Assembly: GCA_947462335.1 (NCBI GenBank)
Contig: OX381707.1
Location: forward strand, 62,907,773-62,971,772
Length of the DNA: 64,000 bases
Source of the DNA: Harmothoe impar
Taxonomy: Eukaryota; Annelida; Polychaeta; Phyllodocida; Polynoidae
Direction: 5' to 3'
Part shown: one piece after another, positions 4,479-64,000 of the stretch
Position numbering within the stretch: position 1 is the stretch's first letter
Layout: each line of letters starts with the position of its first letter
The notes under the pieces: generated by a model
The model's database searches: none
What the model was told of the DNA's origin: nothing
Seen by the model: the letters and a program-made list of their open reading frames with translations, nothing else
Made by a program: the position numbers and the translations under genes

Positions 4479-4613
4479 GAGTTCTGCACCGTTTGAGACA
4501 TCCACTGTCATGCTGCTGCCACTGTACCAGACACATGTGTTTTAGAGGTCCGTGTTATCCTGACCTTGCCGCACCTGTAAGTGAAACAAGACTTACTTGA
4601 AAATCTCTTTACC

Positions 4614-5900
4614 ATGGGGCTCTCCGACCTCGACCAGTCCTATTTGGAGCTGCTACACCATGCCATTAGCTCAACGGACGGCAATGAGACAATAGACTTC
4701 AGTAAGCCTTACATTAAGGTGTCATTGCGCTATGTCTACCCTTTGTTTATATTCCTCCATGCCTGCGTCATCCTATTTGGCTTCTTCGGTAATATGACCG
4801 TGTTTGTGGTGATTGTCCGTGGACGACTATACAAGGATCCCTTGTTTTTCTTCATAGGAAATTTAGCTTTGTCGGATATGATCAAGAGTGCCATAGTCCT
4901 GCCTATCACCCTGGCCAATCTGTTGTTACAGAACTGGGTATTTGGAAGCTTCCTCTGCCTATTCCTGCCAATGATGCACTCCTTCCCCATACATGCTACC
5001 ATGATGACATACCTGATGATAGCGATCGACCGGTATCGGTTTATCGTTTACCCCATGAAGAGTCGGGTGCCGGCTGGACTATGTACCATCGCTGTTTGGG
5101 TCTTGTCAGTCTGCATCGTTCTACCCTATGCTGTGTACATCAAATACATAGATCTAGGACAGATCATTGGCCCCACCTTTGAGGGCCTCGGGATCTGTTT
5201 CGTCAACCTTGAGCGCAATGTCGAAGAATATATCCGGGCCATCTTCGTTATCCTCTACTGCCTTCCGCTGACCTCAGTAGCTTTCCTGTATGTGAAGGTC
5301 TCCATGGAGCTCAAAGGCTTTGACAGTGCCACTGGTATGCATATTGAGGATACCATGCAGAACAGCAGTGAAGCCTCCTATCACACTCGGGTCACCTGGT
5401 CCATGAGCGAAAGCGACAACCGCATAGACCCCGAAGGTGCCAGTGGTGAGTCGACAACAGTCGGTCGGCACTATGAGCGACGCTACAGCAATGATCAAGA
5501 CGAGGAAGAGATTGACATGCGCAAGGAAAAGCGCACTCAGAAGTACATGATCACCATGGTGGTGCTCTTTGCCATGTGCTGGTGTCCCATTAATATCCTC
5601 ATCCTCGTCACTCATTTTGTTTTCGAGAACGACAACAATGCAGGCCACTTCGACATCACCTACCTCACTTTCACTTTCTTCGGCTTCATGTCGACCTGCA
5701 TTAACCCAGTGCTCTTTGCGTCTTGGAGAATGTCAGATAGCACCAAGGATCGGCTGAAAGGCTACTTTCGCTTCTCTAATCGCCGCCAGAATGGGCAGTG
5801 CTCAAACGAGAGTCGCCAGAACCACAATGACATTTACGCTGTCCAGCAAGGTGTAACCTCCCCAGCAGAGGTGCATGAGCACCACAAGAGCTATGTATAG
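4614..5900 (+). CDS. Class A (rhodopsin-family) peptide-type GPCR, orphan
   Basis: Plasma-membrane seven-helix receptor of 428 aa in one exon. The start at 4614 is chosen for its strong Kozak context ACCATGG; the frame is open 33 nt further up but has no ATG. Visible landmarks: N-glycosylation site N24; GN60 in TM1; NLALSD with D88 in TM2; W108 in ECL1; C115 at the top of TM3 pairing with C195 in ECL2; DRY 139-141; W162 in TM4; P218 in TM5; CWCP 322-325 in TM6; NP 364-365 in TM7 (NPVLF in place of NPxxY). The third intracellular loop (about 232-310) is long and acidic. The tail ends KSYV, fitting a class I PDZ ligand. Helix spacing and DRY/CWxP resemble peptide receptors of the NPY/GPR83-like group, but I cannot name ligand or orthologue. 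The stop and 3' UTR are tandemly duplicated downstream. Confidence 0.93.
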   Translation: MGLSDLDQSYLELLHHAISSTDGNETIDFSKPYIKVSLRYVYPLFIFLHACVILFGFFGNMTVFVVIVRGRLYKDPLFFFIGNLALSDMIKSAIVLPITLANLLLQNWVFGSFLCLFLPMMHSFPIHATMMTYLMIAIDRYRFIVYPMKSRVPAGLCTIAVWVLSVCIVLPYAVYIKYIDLGQIIGPTFEGLGICFVNLERNVEEYIRAIFVILYCLPLTSVAFLYVKVSMELKGFDSATGMHIEDTMQNSSEASYHTRVTWSMSESDNRIDPEGASGESTTVGRHYERRYSNDQDEEEIDMRKEKRTQKYMITMVVLFAMCWCPINILILVTHFVFENDNNAGHFDITYLTFTFFGFMSTCINPVLFASWRMSDSTKDRLKGYFRFSNRRQNGQCSNESRQNHNDIYAVQQGVTSPAEVHEHHKSYV

Positions 5901-30170: not shown

Positions 30171-30765
30171 ATGGGTTTACAGAGAAAAGAATCACTGTGA
30201 CTCTCAAATGGGAGTCCGGCCCCGTTATCTGAGTTAACCCTCCCCAGGACTCTAAAGGGACTCCCATTAAATTAGTGGGACTCTGAGAGGTTGATTGAGA
30301 GGTTGATTTATCTTTTATTGATCTATTTAAGCACATGAAATATTGAATTACATCGAGGACATTTATGCGTTGTTTCATATTTTACAAATTGCCGAGAAAA
30401 ATCAATTTATCGTTTGTATTTATAGTACCGGTACTTTAACAATTGGGGCTGATAATCTCCAAACATGTCTCGAATTAAAATCGATTATGACTACACTTGA
30501 TCAATAAAAGACAAGGGTGACAGTCTGCATAGCAGATGTTTAATGCCACCCTTATTACTGTAAATCACTAGAATAAAATATTTCCAGAATTCCTGTTTCA
30601 GCAAGATGACCAGGACAAAACGGGACAGACACTTGTGCATTTTGTCTCACTATATATCAATCATAATTGAACAGTCGATTAGGTATACCATTTGATGTTA
30701 CAGAGCATACATGGGGTTGTGTTAAGCACTTTCGATTTTAGCGTGAAATCAAACAACGTCTTCTT

Positions 30766-33741
30766 CTATAATACAATGTTTACCGGTATTGTTTTCTCAA
30801 GCTTAATTTTCATTAATTTCTTGAAATAAGAAATGCTTTCTGATGCTCTGACAGTGTGGTGTAGAGCATTCCACACTTGGGCAACATGAACTTCTACACT
30901 CTTTTCGTAGGAGGCTGTATGAATTAATGCATATTTTAATAAAGGAGAAACAGCATGTCTCATTAACCTAGGTCTAACATCAGTAAACTCTATCTTATGT
31001 GCTCTCTTGTACCCATACAATTCTACATGATATTCTCTGCGTTTGTCTAGCATTGGAACTTTGGCCTCTTGATGAATATATTCAGTAGAGGTTAGAATAG
31101 GCAATTTTAAACAATATTTCAAACAACGATTTTGAATTCCTTGTAATAAATTCAAACAGTCTACATTAGCTGCATTATATAGGACATCCGCATAATCAAA
31201 CAAGGGTAATGCGTAGGTCTTATAAATTAGAAGTAAAATGTCCGTTGGTACAAAGAATTTTAATCTGCCTAAGAGGTGAGACCGATATGCAAGATTTTTT
31301 CTAAGTTCTTTAATGTGTTTATTGTAGTTTAATTCATGGTCAAGAGTGACGCCTAAATACTTATAAGAAGTTACAAATTTCAAAATTTCTTCGTTTGCCT
31401 TAATTTTTACCATTTCTAGTGGTAGGGTTTTGTATTTTATATTGGATGTAAAAAGCATTAATTTAGTTTTAGATTCATTTAGGGTTAATTTGTTTTTTGA
31501 AGACCAGGCTATAAAGTGATTGATTGAGGCTTGCATATCGGTTTCTAGCTCTTTCATATTGGTACCAGATACATATAGAACAGTGTCGTCAGCGTATAAT
31601 AGCGACTTGACATTTCCAACACGGGTTTTTAAATCATTCACATATATTAAGAAGAACAACGGACCCAAAATGCTACCCTGTGGGGCGCCACATGTCATGT
31701 GAGCTATGTTGGAAGACACACCATTCGCCTTGGTGATTTGAGTTCTGTTTTCGAAGTAATTTTGAATTAATTTAAGGTTTTTACCGGTAATACCATATAA
31801 TTTTAATTTTTTAATCAAGATTAAATAATCTAAAGAATCAAAAGCTTTTTTTATATCGATGAATGCTGCTAGGGTGTATCTTCCAACATTTCTCTCACGC
31901 AGAATGTCATTAGTTAAAACGCTGATAGTGTCAATGGTAGAACAAGCTTTACGGTAGCCACCCTGTTCTTTTAACAAAACATTATTTAATTCAAGGTGGT
32001 CAGTTAACCTAGAATGTATTAAGCGCTCGAGAACCTTGCCAGGTACAGGAAGTTGGCTTACCGGTCGAAAATTAGAGACATTATTCAAATCACCTGATTT
32101 TGGTAAAGGTGTGACCTGAGCTTCTTTCCAAGCATCTGGAATTTTACTATGATTTATAGCCAAATTAATTATTTTTACAAACCTGTGTGGATTAGCTATA
32201 ACAGAATCCTTAAACGATTTAGTTGATATATAATCAATAGCAGCTGCCTTATTTACCTTAAGGTCTTGTACAACTTTAACAATTTCAACCATACTGAAAT
32301 CAAGGTCTTGCATCATATTTTGTACTTCAATGCCATCGAACGACCATTCGGAGTCATGTTTTGAGGCTAATTTCGGACCAATATCCGCAAAAAAAGTATT
32401 TATATAGTCAGCTGCATTTTCAGGTTCAATAAAAGTACCGTTATCCTTCAAATTAATTTGTTTCTTATTATTTCCCTTTGAGGGGATAAGTTCCTTCATT
32501 GCTGCCCAAAACTTTTTTGGCTCACCGACATTATTTTGTACCTCCTCGACAACATGAACCCTGTGGGCTTCTTTGATTTCAGTACACATACTGTTTTTTA
32601 GCTGGTTAGCTATAAACCAGTCTAATATAGTATCAGTGCGTCTGGCCTTGGCTAACGCTAGGTTCTTTTCAGCTATGCTAACTTTAAGCTCTGGCGTGAG
32701 CCAGGGCTCGTCTTTATTTTTTATAACAAATTTCCGTATGGGACAATTAATGTCAAGCGCTTCCGACATATTTTTAAAGTAAATAGACCAACATTCATCT
32801 ACATCTATACAGTCATCAAAATTCGACCAATCACAATTGTTTATATATTCCTGAAACTTTACACAGTCATATTTGCGATAGGATCTTCCTACAAACTCAT
32901 GTTTACATGGCAATCTTTTGATGTGTTTTAATCTAATGTAAACAGGAAGATGGTCAGATATATTTATATCCACTACTCCGTATGAGTTTACATTAACTAC
33001 ATTTGTAAAGATTAAGTCAATGCATGACTTTGTCTCAGCAATGCGGGTGGCAGATGATATCAACTGGCGTAGAGAAAAATCCTCAAATTTGGAATAGAGC
33101 TTTTCTTTGACATTGTCTTCATTTAATACATTTATATTAAAATCACCAGTTAGAATTACATCATAGCTGTCGAAGTTATCAATTTTACCAATCATTGTGT
33201 ACAATTCGTCAATAAATCGATTTTTGTTACCTTCAGGAGGCCTGTATATTGTGGCTAATAGAATATTCTTTGCCATACCTTTAGAAATTACAAGCCATTG
33301 AATCTCGATATCAATCGTACTCTTATTTAAAGTTGCAAAATCCTCAGCGGAACATGTGAGGTCTTCACTAACATATGTACAAACACCACCAGCCGTCTTA
33401 TCTCTTTGCCTATCCAGTCTATATAGGTTATAGCCTGGCAAATCATAGTCTGAGTCTGGATTAATCTCCGTTAACCATGATTCCTGCAATGCAATATACT
33501 TAGGCCTTGGCCTGGTAACAAATTGTGTTCAGCCATCAAAAGTCGATGTTCGACGTCTCACTAAATCTTTTGTGTACCCAGTATGCGTCCATAATATATG
33601 TTGGTTATTAAATAAAACATTTACAATTTCAGCACAAGACATGGAACATACATGAGGTTTAGGGCCTCGGCTCTTGTGGCCACCCATACCTCTACAATTG
33701 TTTGGCAAAGGCTGGACTAGATATGAGTGGAGGGCAACCAT
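30766..33741 (-). pseudogene. LINE ORF2: EEP endonuclease plus reverse transcriptase, one TGA
   Basis: From ATG 33741 the frame is broken by one TGA at 33531-33529, then reads 907+ residues to 30766. In the 907-aa part: endonuclease motifs QESW (2-5), YRPPEG (82-87), TGDFNIN (114-120), ISDH (177-180); reverse transcriptase with FRPVSQLP (474-481), DIKKAFD (545-551), GAPQGSILGPLFF (601-613), and catalytic YADD at 632-635. A C-terminal conserved region follows; no RNase H is seen. The first strand of the endonuclease is not recognisable upstream of the TGA, so the N-terminus may be altered. Acts at genomic target sites in target-primed reverse transcription. Confidence 0.9.
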
Positions 33742-34089
33742 TGACTTGTATTAATAGAATATATACACTTTTACACATATTAGTACAAATGTCTTAGCGC
33801 TGTCGACTTCAGAACATTCATTTGGATGGCATTTTACATACCGGCTTAAATCAATATATACATGTATGACATTTACTTGAATGACACTTATAGTATTCCG
33901 TGTGTGACATACCGGTACTTTATATGAAAAACATACATGTATGACATTTGGGTATCCACGAAAATGTTGACAATATTCTACTTGTGTGACATACCGGTAC
34001 TTTAATTTAATTTAGTTAAATCACAGGGTATTAGTTTGATCCAATCATGGCAGTTAATTGTGTTATATTAGTGATAAACCCCATGAGGG

Positions 34090-35511
34090 TCATAATTTGC
34101 TCGTGTTGCTGGTGTCAGAGAGGGTGGGGCTGTTCAATAGTTCCTCGTCTGCAGGTGTGGGCGTGGTCTTGCCTTCAGCGCTGTCGACTAGCTTTGTTAG
34201 AGCTGCACAGGGTTTAGCCGGAGTTGAGGTTAACTTTTTTGCGTCCAAGACACCTTCCAGATACCCTAGGATCAGTGAGTCTGCAGAACATATGTCTTTG
34301 ACTGCTTTTTCCAGGTTGTAGTCGTCAGGTTGCTCAGGTTCTTTTGAGGGAACTTCTGGGGCAGGTGTGGGTAGTGGATCTTTTTTCGCTGCTGGCTGGT
34401 AGTCTAGTGCACAAGCCCCTTTTTGCTCCTCTATTATAGGTATTAGAGGTTGACTGTTCGCCTTGGCACCATCTTCCTCCTCTGGGATTATAGGTGGTTG
34501 CTGTGGGGTTTCTGGTACATGAAGGTTGATCTCCCATGGGTTGCTTAGGTTCAGTGTTGTTGGTGAGACGCTTCCGGCTGGAGGGGGGTTCTGCTCAGCT
34601 TCTCGTTTGGCCTCAGCTCTTGCCTTTTCCAGTAGCAGACCGAGGATGTTTCCTCCCGTCACGTTTTCATGCGATAGGTTCTTGGCGTTGCCAAGGTGCC
34701 TTCCAGCCCCGTATGTCTTGTCATAGGTTAGCTCCTACAGTCTGTTTTCCTTGGTCTTTTGAAGAATTTCCTTCATATGTGGCGGGCTAAACTTGCTCTT
34801 AATGAGATTGTACATGAGCTTTGTGGCACCTTTTTTCCAGTCAGACGTAGGGGTAACATCGGATCCAAGCTTCATTACAATGTATGGATCTTCAGCAGCT
34901 AGAATGTCTGTGGCTGCCTGTTGTTCACCTGCAGAGACGGCTTTGTCATGTTGATATGCTTGTTCCAGCGAGCTGTAGGTTTGGTCTTTATACACTACCT
35001 CACAGGGGTAGAGATTCGATAGGGGGTTGTATTCTGACCTAAAACCAAGTCCGTCTGATGTCTTGATCGTTGTCGCTTTCCACATGTTTAAGCCAAAGGG
35101 CAAGGCGTCAATATCCTTGTGCTGGTAGGACCGATCATTTATAATGACGCTACGCTGCCTGAGTTTGACGTTTCTTATTTTGCCCGACTTCTTTGCCAAG
35201 AAAAAGATGGCCCTCAGGTCATTGTATTGTTTCCTTTCTCTTGGGGTGAGCTCGTCCATCAGGGAGATACCCAGCCAACAGTCTTTTCCACGTAGGAACC
35301 TAATATTCCTGAAAATTTCACTTTTTGTGGATCGTTGTTGTAGCTTCACTATAACGGCTCTAGGTTTCCTGTCAGCGCCATTGTTTACATTTTGGGAGTT
35401 GTCGGGGCGCTTGCCTTGGCGATAGATGAATTCACATCTCTCGTTTCCATAATTTAACCCCAAATCTGTGAACAAGTCGTCTAAGAACTTACGGAGATCC
35501 TCATTGCCTAA
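34090..35511 (-). pseudogene. LINE ORF1: RNA-binding region fused to NADAR domain, one TAG
   Basis: The frame runs from 35511 to the stop at 34090, interrupted by one in-frame TAG (34735-34737). Order: RRM/CTD-like segment of L1 ORF1p type (CEFIYRQGKR, KPRAVIVKL, then GISLMDELTPRERKQYNDLR and KLRQRSVIINDRSY). It is followed by a NADAR domain (about 35046-34605): YNPLSNLYPCEV, TYSSLEQAYQHDKA, DWKKGATKLMYNLIKSKFS, and after the TAG the closing YGAGRHLG..TGGNILGLLLEKAR. Then comes a Pro/Glu-rich tail of ~170 aa. ORF1p coats element RNA. NADAR enzymes cleave ADP-ribose linkages (YbiA/DarT-NADAR family). The N-terminus with the usual coiled coil is missing. The NADAR call rests on motif order; conserved Glu, Gln, Lys and Trp are visible. 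Confidence 0.82.
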
Positions 35512-36593
35512 AACTCTATGACAACTCTATAATGACTCTTGTTCTAAGAGAGTCATAGCTAATTGACTCCCTACCTGACGTTGACTGCAGTCTTACGGGA
35601 CTCCATATGGGGGAGTAACAACTCCATAGGGAGTCATATTTAGCTGACTCCTTTTTGACTCCCTTAACTACCCTGACTCTCAAACTTAGACTTTCAATAT
35701 ATCACCAGTTCCGAGCTCTTCCACTAGAGGGCCCCACAATATAATTTTTTAAAGTTTTTCTCAGAACAGTGCCTTTCATAATGGTTTTAAAATGGCCCTA
35801 TTCATCTCATCAAGACAAAACTTATTTTGTCTTATAATAAGTACATTGACTAAGGAAAATACTATTTCCTTATGTGAAATAGACCAAAATAAGGTACAGT
35901 AGAAGCATAGGCACCATTTCTGAGAGTAATGAATGCTAAAGCATTATCACTGTTTCCTCTAGGCTTGATGGCTGAGACCCAGTTTGACTCCCTACAAAAA
36001 TAGTGTCAAACAGATTTGACTTCCGTTTTTTATAGTGTTATCCCGGTTTGACTCCCATTTGACTCTCTATGCAAAGGAAGTCAGTACACTTAGACTCCCT
36101 AATGATAGGGAGTGTCAGTCACTTTGGAGTCGTGGGGAAAGTTACCTCAGTGATCGGGCCGGACTCTCATTTGAGAGTCATTGTGATTCTACTTCTTTGC
36201 TCTGTGTTTGTAAGCATTTAACCTCTATAAATCTTGAAGTTAGTGTTCCTATGAAAGATGAAGGGGGTCCCCTCATACCCTCCACTTTGAAATATGTTAA
36301 CATGCAAGACTTTTAATATTTCCCTGAAAAAGGTATGCCGATGAAAAGGGATGAAACCCACCCTCACCAGTTGTTGAATAACGTGTACTGCCTTGTCTGG
36401 TGACTCGCACAAACATTTTTGCCTAAATCACGGATTGCCTGCTTGGTCACTTTGTACATACTGGGGGCCCAATATTCACAAACACACATCTCCCATTGCT
36501 GTCAGAACGACGTACATCATAGACCTATGTACACAGTGATAGCTGTGTCATTCCCTTAGCACCAAAGCCACAGGCGGCGCATGGATATATGTG

Positions 36594-59370: not shown

Positions 59371-59468
59371 GTACCACGCGGATAGTCTAAACACCCTGGG
59401 CCTAATAAGACTGTAGTGGCATCCCCAGTTTAGTCATATTGTTCGGAATGACAAATTGATATTCAAAA

Positions 59469-60750
59469 ATGACTAGGGCAAAACTAAGGCCTTATCCTAA
59501 AAGAATTAGCCTAGAGAGACTTCTACATACTGCTATCTCTGAACATTTAGATGCAAATGATATTTTGTCGCCTCATCAAGGCGGGTACCAAAAAGCTAAG
59601 TCAACTCTTGATTCCATTAGTAAACTGGTTGATAATGTACTAGAAAATAGAAATAAAGGTAATATAAGTATGGCTGCATTTATAGATATAAAAAAAGCCT
59701 TTGATTCCGTAAATTATATTATATTAATTTCAAAATTAGAGCAGTATGGTATAAGAAATAGAACTTTAACTTTAATAGAAAATTATCTATCCCAGAGACA
59801 GCAGTGCACGGTAGCAAACAATGTCAGATCTAGTACCCTGCCTTTAACATGTGGCGTGCCCCAAGGCTCAATTTTGGGCCCTTTATTTTTTCTTTTGTAT
59901 ATAAATGATTGTATAAATGTCGAGGATGACCACCAGACTATACTCTATGCTGATGACTCAGTCCTATATGTGTCAGAAAAAACGATACCAATATTAAGCA
60001 ATAGACTTTCGACTGCTTTAAACAAATTTTCAAACTGGGCGTCTATCAATAAATTAACGATAAATGAATCAAAAACCAAAATTATGACCTTTGCCTCAAA
60101 TATCAAATTAAATAGACTAGAAAAACCCAAAATTGTAGGAAATTAAAAATGTGATCTCATATAAATACCTGGGAGTCATCCTCGACGAGCAACTTAATTT
60201 TAATATGTATTTACGTAATATGATAAAGAACCTCAGATTCAAGTCCATATTATTGTATAGGACAAGACTGAGTATGGCCAAAGACGCTAGATTGCGGGTT
60301 TACAAAAGTCATGTTTTACCAGTTATTGACTATTGTGATGTGCTGTACTCTCGATCCTTGGTTGGGACTCTTGAGGAGTTACAGAGAGTCCAAAATAAGT
60401 GCTTAAAAACCTGTCTATCTAAGCATATTTTGACACCAACTGAAGAAGTACATAAAGAGGCAAAATTACCGGTACTAGAACAAAGACGTCTTTATCATAC
60501 TAAACTATACGCTTTTAAAAGGTCTAAAGAGGATAAATTTTTAGAAAAAAAGACAAGAGTTACAAGGGCTAGTACTGCACCTTTGCTAAAGTATGATATC
60601 ATACATAGCGCTTCATATGAAAATTCTGTGAGTGTATCATGTGCGCAAGTATTTAATGCTCTATCTCCAGACTATAGAAATATCCCTGATTTCATTTCTT
60701 TTAAGCGTAAAGCTAAAGAAGAAATGTTGAATACTATACCGGTACTCTAA
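59469..60750 (+). pseudogene. LINE reverse transcriptase fragment, frameshifted
   Basis: The first frame (59469-60146) holds DIKKAFDSVNY, GVPQGSILGPLFFLLYIND and the catalytic YADD. Homology starts only at about 59495 (LERLLHTAISEHL). The reading then shifts at about 60135-60148 (AATTAAAAATG) into the frame 60151-60750 (ISYKYLGVILDEQLNF to NTIPVL stop), matching the C-terminal part of the other LINE. The N-terminal endonuclease and part of the fingers domain are missing: non-functional. Confidence 0.9.
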
Positions 60751-62400: not shown

Positions 62401-63369
62401 TTACAAGAAAGAAAAAAAGAATTTACAAGGGGCATGCTCCAAGGCTGTCATTTCAGGTACAGACTGGTGCAAATACCTCCTCACCGCTGAAGAGCGCCAA
62501 TTGCCCCTACGCATGATGGACTCCACAGGAACACCTAGATCTTTTAGTAGGGTAGAGCCACCATGCCTCAGCGAATGAGTAGAAACCCTGTCGACTGGAA
62601 GCTGCAAACTAACTGCACAGGCCTTCAACCTAGAGTAGACTTCCTCATATGTCAATGGGAACACCAAGCCACCCACCCTATGGTACAGGAGGGGGTCAGC
62701 CGGTGAAGAAACCTTAATAATGTCCAATAAAAATTCCCTTATACACCAAGGGGATCCAGGTACATCCTGCAAGAAAACAAAGAAATTATCCCTGGAAAAT
62801 TGATCGGTTTTGCTAGACTTAATATTAATACGGATAGACCCTTCCAATGGCAGCAAACTTGTAACGCCAGTATTGTGCTGGGAAGCTGTCATGTGGCAGA
62901 TCCGGAGAAGGCATCTGAACCCAAGAACAACTGAAATCCAAAATATAATATCAGTATGAGATGTTAAATCCAACATAGACCTAATGGCCAATATATCTGT
63001 GGGAGAAAAGGGGTAACGAACAGATTTCTTAGTATTATCATAAGACCTCTCAATACCGTTCAAAGTCTGTTTCAGTATGAAATCATCTGAGTGAGCAGGC
63101 CATCCTAACATCTTCTGCTGGTACCAAATGCCAGAAATATAGTTCCTAACAGACACAGGAGCAAAACCCTCCTTGGATAAATAAGTCCCGTACAGCCCCG
63201 CCTGATCAGAAGAGCAGGGGTAGGGTACAAGAGAGAATTTCTTACAGAAAGACATATACCTTTTACACTGAGCCGCCCTGGATAACTTAGTAGTTGGCGC
63301 TACTCCCTCATCCGCCAGTATGTACTGGGCAATCCGAAGGGTCTGGAGCTCAGCTGTAAAGAGAATCAA
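62401..63369 (-). CDS. DIRS-like tyrosine recombinase
   Basis: 322 codons, intact, beginning with a non-ATG codon inside the end of the RNase H frame, so it may be made by frameshift or internal initiation. The N-terminal SAM-like half (about 1-110) is followed by the catalytic half with R in GFRCLLRICHM (156), K in NIKSSKTDQF (184/187), HSLRHG (H265, R268), GNW (W291) and nucleophile Y299 in RRYL. It would integrate the circular double-stranded DNA form by recombination without target duplication. Absence of internal stops suggests a recent insertion. Confidence 0.9.
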   Translation of the reverse strand: MILFTAELQTLRIAQYILADEGVAPTTKLSRAAQCKRYMSFCKKFSLVPYPCSSDQAGLYGTYLSKEGFAPVSVRNYISGIWYQQKMLGWPAHSDDFILKQTLNGIERSYDNTKKSVRYPFSPTDILAIRSMLDLTSHTDIIFWISVVLGFRCLLRICHMTASQHNTGVTSLLPLEGSIRINIKSSKTDQFSRDNFFVFLQDVPGSPWCIREFLLDIIKVSSPADPLLYHRVGGLVFPLTYEEVYSRLKACAVSLQLPVDRVSTHSLRHGGSTLLKDLGVPVESIMRRGNWRSSAVRRYLHQSVPEMTALEHAPCKFFFSFL

Positions 63370-64000
63370 CTATATTATAATCTAATAGAGAAGCATTACA
63401 TTTATCCACAGTACCCCTGTACGGGAGCCTAGAAAGGTGATCAGCCAGCACATTGTCCTTTGACTTAATATAGGTGGCATATAATTCTACATTGAGAATG
63501 AAACATAGCCAAAAAATCTCCCGTAGCCAGGACATGCACAACTTATTTTTACTCCTCCCAGAATTAATCATATGTAAAACTTGCATATTATCTGTTATCA
63601 CATGTAATTTCTTATTAGAGTAAGAGGCGCCCCAGCGCCTAAGCCCCACCAGAACAGGCCAGAGCTCATACACATTTATATTGCCGCGATGAACTCTAAT
63701 ATTGTCCATCTCCGGGCTAGCCTCTTCATGTAAAGAACTAACCTTACCAGCAACCCTGAAACCCTCCCAAGTACCGTAGAAAAAGTCACCGCCCATCCAG
63801 GCGCCGAAACCCCTTTTGGACGCGTCAGATACCATAGGAACGTCTAGCAGATCTCTATTAATCAAGGCTTTAGAGTTAAAAACACCACAGAACTGTCTCC
63901 ACCATAGAAGATCCTCTCTAGTTTCCTCACTCAAAAAGATAGCCCTACCTGGTCTAGCTCTTGCACACAAATCGTACAGCCTACGACTAAACGTACGACC
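63350..64000 (-). CDS. DIRS-like RT/RNase H polyprotein, C-terminal part
   Basis: The frame is open from the window edge to a stop at 63350. After GRTFSRRLYDL (the segment linking RT and RNase H in these elements), the RNase H domain shows D in VSDASKRGFGAWMGG, E in NVYELWPVL, D in VITDNMQVLHMINSG and D in SKDNVLADHLSR. That is the full D-E-D-D set for removing the RNA strand during element copying. Intact in the visible part. The N-terminal reverse transcriptase is outside the window. Confidence 0.9.
   Translation of the reverse strand, partial: GRTFSRRLYDLCARARPGRAIFLSEETREDLLWWRQFCGVFNSKALINRDLLDVPMVSDASKRGFGAWMGGDFFYGTWEGFRVAGKVSSLHEEASPEMDNIRVHRGNINVYELWPVLVGLRRWGASYSNKKLHVITDNMQVLHMINSGRSKNKLCMSWLREIFWLCFILNVELYATYIKSKDNVLADHLSRLPYRGTVDKCNASLLDYNIVDSLYS

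Follow-up and report, generated by a model that had tools for sequence, protein, structure and literature searches.

A NADAR domain fused to the ORF1 protein of a recently active LINE family in the annelid Harmothoe impar

We describe a LINE family, abundant and recently active in the genome of Harmothoe impar (GCA_947462335.1), whose ORF1 joins an RNA-binding protein resembling LINE-1 ORF1p to a NADAR domain. The fusion is a family-wide feature, and its NADAR part is under strong purifying selection, about equal to that on the RNA-binding core, which indicates that the domain does something for the element. The copy analysed here lies in a window of 64,000 nt (contig OX381707.1, positions 62,907,773-62,971,772 of the forward strand) and is itself dead. 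As the best explanation we tentatively propose that it is a dead copy of an active LINE whose ORF1p NADAR would erase guanine-base ADP-ribose from the element's nucleic acid, reversing a transferase. New in this description are the pairing of ORF1-NADAR with an apparently CR1/L2-like ORF2, and the evidence on selection, recent activity and conservation of the pocket.

Results

A dead copy on the minus strand

The features of the window copy and its surroundings are as follows.

30284..35510, minus strand: 5'-truncated LINE copy, comprising ORF1 (from the RRM onward), spacer, ORF2 and 3' end; colinear with the complete element L022
35050..35510, minus strand: RRM-like and L1-ORF1p-type C-terminal domain (CTD) of ORF1, placed by the P0001-P0004 alignment and the P0002 model; boundary approximate
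34612..35034, minus strand: NADAR domain, from the PF08719 match mapped onto the window
34963..34965, minus strand: Glu codon, by alignment the counterpart of E43 of the Phytophthora NADAR and E88 of E. coli C7
34942..34944, minus strand: Lys codon, by alignment the counterpart of K50 and of K95 of C7
34735..34737, minus strand: TAG breaking ORF1 within the NADAR domain of the window copy; copies elsewhere in the genome are intact
34732..34734, minus strand: Glu codon, by alignment the counterpart of E125 (the YbiA-subfamily Glu)
34090..34611, minus strand: low-complexity C-terminal tail of ORF1, with stop
30766..33528, minus strand: open part of ORF2, APE-type endonuclease and reverse transcriptase (Pfam matches, motifs)
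30284..30308, minus strand: 3' end of the element, two 12-mer repeats without poly-A
36117..36190, with its partner at 30188-30262, no strand assigned: terminal inverted repeat of an older GAGTC-rich repeat (83% over 75 columns)

Comparison with L022 by blastn gave a single colinear piece, at 95.6% identity over 35510-33488 and 95.7% over 33483-30284. Just past the ORF2 start, 83 bases of L022 (3817-3899) are absent from the window copy and four unaligned bases stand in their place; the first codons of ORF2 lie upstream, severed by this deletion at 33484-33487. Matches to four homologues in tblastn begin abruptly at 35502-35511, and the coiled coil of ORF1 has been lost through the 5' truncation. 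It is this truncation, together with the stop in ORF1 and the deletion in ORF2, that marks the copy as dead. The GAGTC-rich repeat that it interrupts is older than the LINE and would measure about 780 bp without the LINE insert.

Domain structure of ORF1

A sequence-only reading of this DNA had called an L1-ORF1p-like region joined to a NADAR domain, and its coordinates, its NADAR call, the motifs it quoted (LSNLYP, SLEQAYQHDKA and DW..GA..LMY) and its single TAG were all confirmed on the minus strand. In the frame 35526-34735, which ends before the stop, NADAR was the single Pfam family found (PF08719; 6.7e-13, 49.6 bits); with the TAG read as X the match extended over profile positions 9-161 of 163 (72.7 bits, 5.4e-20), so that the domain exceeds the gathering cutoff of 35.1 bits either way. 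The predicted structure of the domain adopts the NADAR/YbiA fold, and the domain aligns with the Phytophthora nicotianae NADAR (8bau) at 28% identity over 158 residues. The part before the stop also matched the NCBIfam model for a riboflavin-intermediate N-glycosidase, at 46.8 bits and so under the cutoff of 73.7.

The RNA-binding part was recognized by structure. For the model of P0002, a homologue from another record, the top Foldseek and VIA matches were LINE-1 ORF1p (coiled coil, RRM and CTD), at modest model confidence, which agrees with the joining of an L1-ORF1p-like region to NADAR. The RRM/CTD part had no Pfam match in the window frame or the homologues, and the match of a LINE-1 ORF1p profile to ORF1 was not significant (E 0.18). 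On the model, ORF1 is predicted to consist of an L1-ORF1p-like coiled coil, RRM and CTD, followed by NADAR and a disordered tail. The likeness to human LINE-1 ORF1p covers coiled coil, RRM and CTD by structure match; to our knowledge the human protein has neither a NADAR domain nor a long tail.

Copies in the genome

The genome (1.51 Gb in 736 contigs) was searched with a query of 263 residues, of which the NADAR part begins at residue 165. It holds at least 145 matches: scoring covered 145 of the 3301 first-look candidates, and each of the 145 matched. All but one of these (144 of 145) extend from before residue 62 to at least residue 249, thus spanning the ORF1 core and most of the query's NADAR part, so that related copies share the fusion; the remaining match ends at residue 177. 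Stops fell within the match in seven of the 145, and an open frame of at least 500 aa was present in 109 of the 144 covered in that count. Twenty whole elements were retrieved, with ORF1 frames of 549-641 aa, and both ORFs were open in twelve of them (ORF1 of at least 510 aa; ORF2 of at least 940 aa including the start motif). Three pairs on different contigs, with different flanks, are nearly identical (L021/L022, 99.8% over 5895 bp; L029/L030, 99.5% over 5920 bp; L032/L033, 99.5% over 5661 bp), from which we infer recent movement. None of the eight elements examined for target-site duplications showed one.

Homologues, age of the fusion and selection

P0002 is a protein of 644 aa, 75% identical over 98% of the query stretch. 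Other records also yielded P0003 and P0004, the shorter P0001, which ends at the start of NADAR, and the divergent P0005-P0008; all seven of P0002-P0008 exceed the Pfam NADAR cutoff. An unrooted tree places P0002, P0003 and P0004 next to three different subfamilies of the H. impar genome (supports 0.91-0.98), so that the fusion apparently predates the divergence of these subfamilies; the placement of P0005-P0008 was poorly supported (0.68).

Median dN/dS was 0.048 for NADAR (range 0.023-0.091), 0.039 for RRM and CTD, 0.068 for the coiled coil and 0.221 for the tail, as calculated over pairs that share sequences and are hence non-independent, many of them with dS near 1, where the Nei-Gojobori estimate is rough. 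The input was 18 sequences from 26 distinct copies, eight near-identical, broken or partial ones being left out. Pairs of open copies with a total dS of 0.1-1.5 were kept (14 of 153; 13 for RRM and CTD), those outside this range being saturated or too close.

Conservation of the active site

In the E. coli C7 NADAR, E88, K95 and D171 are reported as the catalysts of guanine de-ADP-ribosylation; in the Phytophthora NADAR, E125 is the counterpart of D171, and E43 and K50 contact ADP-ribose (PMC11543638). Because the two pairs are equally spaced, E43 and K50 are probably the counterparts of E88 and K95. In the 8bau alignments E43, K50 and E125 fall opposite Glu 188, Lys 195 and Glu 265 of the window protein (numbering of the 8bau chain is two higher by our count). 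The first Glu and the Lys are kept in all 26 distinct copies of the genome, the window copy included, and the last Glu in all 23 other copies whose frame is open that far; in two of the 26 the frame ends ahead of it. From the same alignments, read by hand, K75 and R79 of the Phytophthora NADAR are replaced in the window by Met and Ser, and the substrate may therefore differ. Both are described as basic residues near the ADP-ribose pyrophosphate, K75 as making no direct contact with the ligand and having a C7 counterpart dispensable for catalysis (PMC11543638). Beyond these differences, the window NADAR shares with YbiA and 8bau the fold, the Glu/Lys/Glu pocket and the YbiA-type last Glu, whereas those proteins lie outside any retroelement ORF1.

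The divergent homologues P0005-P0008 all have Arg at the position of the catalytic Lys (Lys in 0 of 4) and all keep the last Glu; the first Glu is present in three of the four and is Lys in P0008. These replacements indicate that some lineages do without catalysis, and the NADAR of P0005-P0008 has possibly turned into a binder. This divergent lineage sits on contigs of 0.68-3.7 Mb.

ORF2, element ends and LINE class

An APE endonuclease and a reverse transcriptase (RT) in ORF2, copies truncated at the 5' end and shared 3' ends identify the family as a non-LTR retrotransposon. The window ORF2 matches Exo_endo_phos_2 (1.7e-7) and RVT_1 (3.7e-33), carries the motifs GDFN, SDH, GAPQGSILGP and YADD, and contains no CCHC. 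Among the 20 loci, the RT motif G-x-PQG-xx-LGP occurs in 19, YADD in 18 and the L1-type RQGxPLSP in none; ORF2 spans about 950-970 aa when open, and the 12-mer core ATCAACCTCT lies downstream of it in 11 of the 20. We take a PQG-type RT motif with a tandem-repeat 3' end to be CR1/L2-like. By these RT motifs, the length of ORF2, the lack of CCHC in the window ORF2 and the 12-mer tandem 3' end, the element appears to belong with CR1/L2 among LINEs and not with L1/Tx1. Human L1, by comparison, has GTRQGCPLSPLLFNI (GTRQGCPLSP) in RT block 5 where the present element has GAPQGSILGPLFFLIYVN, and an ORF2 of 1275 aa against about 950-970 aa; the present subfamily ends in 12-mer repeats and not in poly-A.

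At the other end, many of the copies L021-L040 begin with GGCAAGATGGCGGA or a similar sequence (at about 1180-1200 on the coding strand, the element 5' end), which resembles the YY1 site of the human L1 5' UTR. Between 901 and 1330, AAGATGGCG occurs in 12 of the 20 loci, against 1 of 100 control windows; L040 has a second site farther upstream.

Discussion

A possible eraser of guanine ADP-ribosylation

The preferred explanation, that the ORF1p NADAR erases guanine-base ADP-ribose, would operate as follows. ORF1p trimers would coat the element RNA, and each trimer would thereby bring three NADARs onto element RNA and cDNA. There the domain would hydrolyse ADP-ribose off guanine bases, reversing a host (or other) guanine-specific ADP-ribosyltransferase whose modification, if left unreversed, would block reverse transcription or translation. 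One candidate opponent, provided that the host possesses it, would be a transferase of the pierisin/CARP-1 type.

As substrate we favour guanine-base ADP-ribose, whether on target DNA or on the element's RNA or cDNA, because of the specificity of NADARs in assays and the guanine-N2 transferase of clams. NADARs are reported as the sole tested hydrolase family to reverse guanosine-base ADP-ribosylation of RNA, leaving phosphate-end ADP-ribose untouched, the macrodomain and ARH enzymes tested being inactive on RNA guanosine-ADPr (PMC11833690). Tested NADARs reverse this modification on both RNA and DNA (PMC11833690, PMC11125620); YbiA and phage NADARs, by one account, were active on guanosine-ADPr in vitro yet did not protect cells from DarT1 (PMC11125620). 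Guanine-N2 ADP-ribosylating activity on DNA has been described from six edible clams, and Meretrix lamarckii is the source of the cloned CARP-1 (PMC11209040). PARP-type ADP-ribosylation, which the sequence-only reading had put forward as the target, is less likely, because NADARs spare phosphate-end ADP-ribose (PMC11833690), because uracil ADP-ribose made by PARP10 is reported to be attacked negligibly or not at all by the C7 NADAR and SCO5665 (PMC13036486), and because loss of PARP1 or PARP2 cuts L1 retrotransposition by about half, according to a review (PMC8535693). That interpretation is thus partly supported: the fusion, its spread through the family, the kept active-site residues and purifying selection were observed, and a hydrolase role and counter-defence are putative.

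That a moving LINE lineage erases guanine ADP-ribosylation because hosts use a pierisin/CARP-1-like transferase as an anti-retroelement defence is a larger claim, and one that we consider unlikely. If true, it would provide a eukaryotic, cis-acting counterpart of DarT-NADAR. ADP-ribosylation of nucleic acids is not known to have been described as a defence against transposons. Intact, near-identical copies and a conserved active site make both the role of NADAR and anti-transposon ADP-ribosylation directly testable, and what NADARs do in eukaryotes, including animals, is described as unclear (PMC11125620). As a separate observation, two genes whose homologues share NADAR/YbiA-like domains are listed among the novel and duplicated genes of a hybrid-incompatibility locus of Caenorhabditis tropicalis (PMC7853720), a further hint of NADARs in animal genetic conflict.

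Alternative readings

With its TAG and truncation the window copy looks broken, but no support was found for an accidental junction, in which a NADAR gene of the host had become fused to part of a LINE in this copy alone. Such a chance nesting of separate ORF1 and NADAR elements, also raised in the sequence-only reading, is refuted by the 144 of 145 scored relatives that match across the junction, by the 95.6% colinearity with the complete L022 and by the homologues in other records, and its probability is practically nil. A functional NADAR could act away from nucleic acid, hydrolysing small signals that host immune enzymes of TIR or SARM1 type make from NAD (ADP-ribose derivatives, cyclic or linear) and so blunting an innate alarm. 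Viral NADARs have been proposed to favour soluble ADP-ribose derivatives (PMC9503650), the YbiA-subfamily Glu is retained, and the altered residues on the pyrophosphate side suit another ligand; an enzyme for soluble signals, however, would have no need of fusion to an RNA-binding trimer, and we judge this reading unlikely.

It is rather improbable that the domain is a non-hydrolytic binder of ADP-ribose or of a nucleic-acid end, guiding the complex of ORF1p and RNA to target-site nicks marked by PARP. PARP1 and PARP2 are said to collect at L1 integration sites and help there (PMC8535693), and P0005-P0008 keep the domain without the catalytic Lys; the first Glu and the Lys, however, persist in 26 of 26 copies and the last Glu in the 23 of 23 that reach it, which favours catalysis in the H. 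impar lineage. An ordinary metabolic or RNA-processing role free of host conflict, for instance that of an N-glycosidase acting on damaged or modified bases or on intermediates like those of the riboflavin pathway, appears more doubtful still: the NCBIfam match points that way, though it is below cutoff, and processing of RNA intermediates is suggested in the Ectocarpus paper (PMC12477816), but the recurrence of NADAR in phages, RNA viruses and large DNA viruses (PMC9503650) and in Gypsy and LINE elements (PMC12477816) suits conflict better.

Nearest known elements

The sequence-only reading was unsure whether the fusion is established in LINEs. It had in fact been mentioned in one sentence, based on Repbase, according to which several Crassostrea gigas LINE families of the Tx1 type have NADAR in their ORF1; the same paper reports NADAR in Pol of one Ectocarpus Gypsy lineage (PMC12477816, Genome Biol 2025). 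A second report of NADAR in a transposon was not found among the papers listed by the literature search, most of which were judged by title to be matches to author names; the main texts of PMC11125620 and PMC9503650 contain no words starting with "transpos". The oyster elements resemble the present family in carrying NADAR within a LINE ORF1 and differ in an ORF2 filed as Tx1 (L1 group), that of the present element being apparently CR1/L2-like; the two could still be of the same kind. The Ectocarpus element is likewise a retrotransposon bearing NADAR, but an LTR element with the domain in Pol, unattached to an RNA-coating ORF1.

Other features of the window

A second RT fragment (59460-60747, plus strand) matches ORF2 in two pieces, at 52% and 47% identity, and has no match to ORF1-NADAR close by. 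At 62404-64000 (minus strand), adjoining Phage_integrase-like and RNase-H-like frames form a DIRS-like arrangement, their Pfam matches scoring 22.6 and 15.9 bits, below the respective curated cutoffs of 27.1 and 21.6. A rhodopsin-type GPCR frame (7tm_1, 1.6e-42) occupies 4581-5897 on the plus strand.
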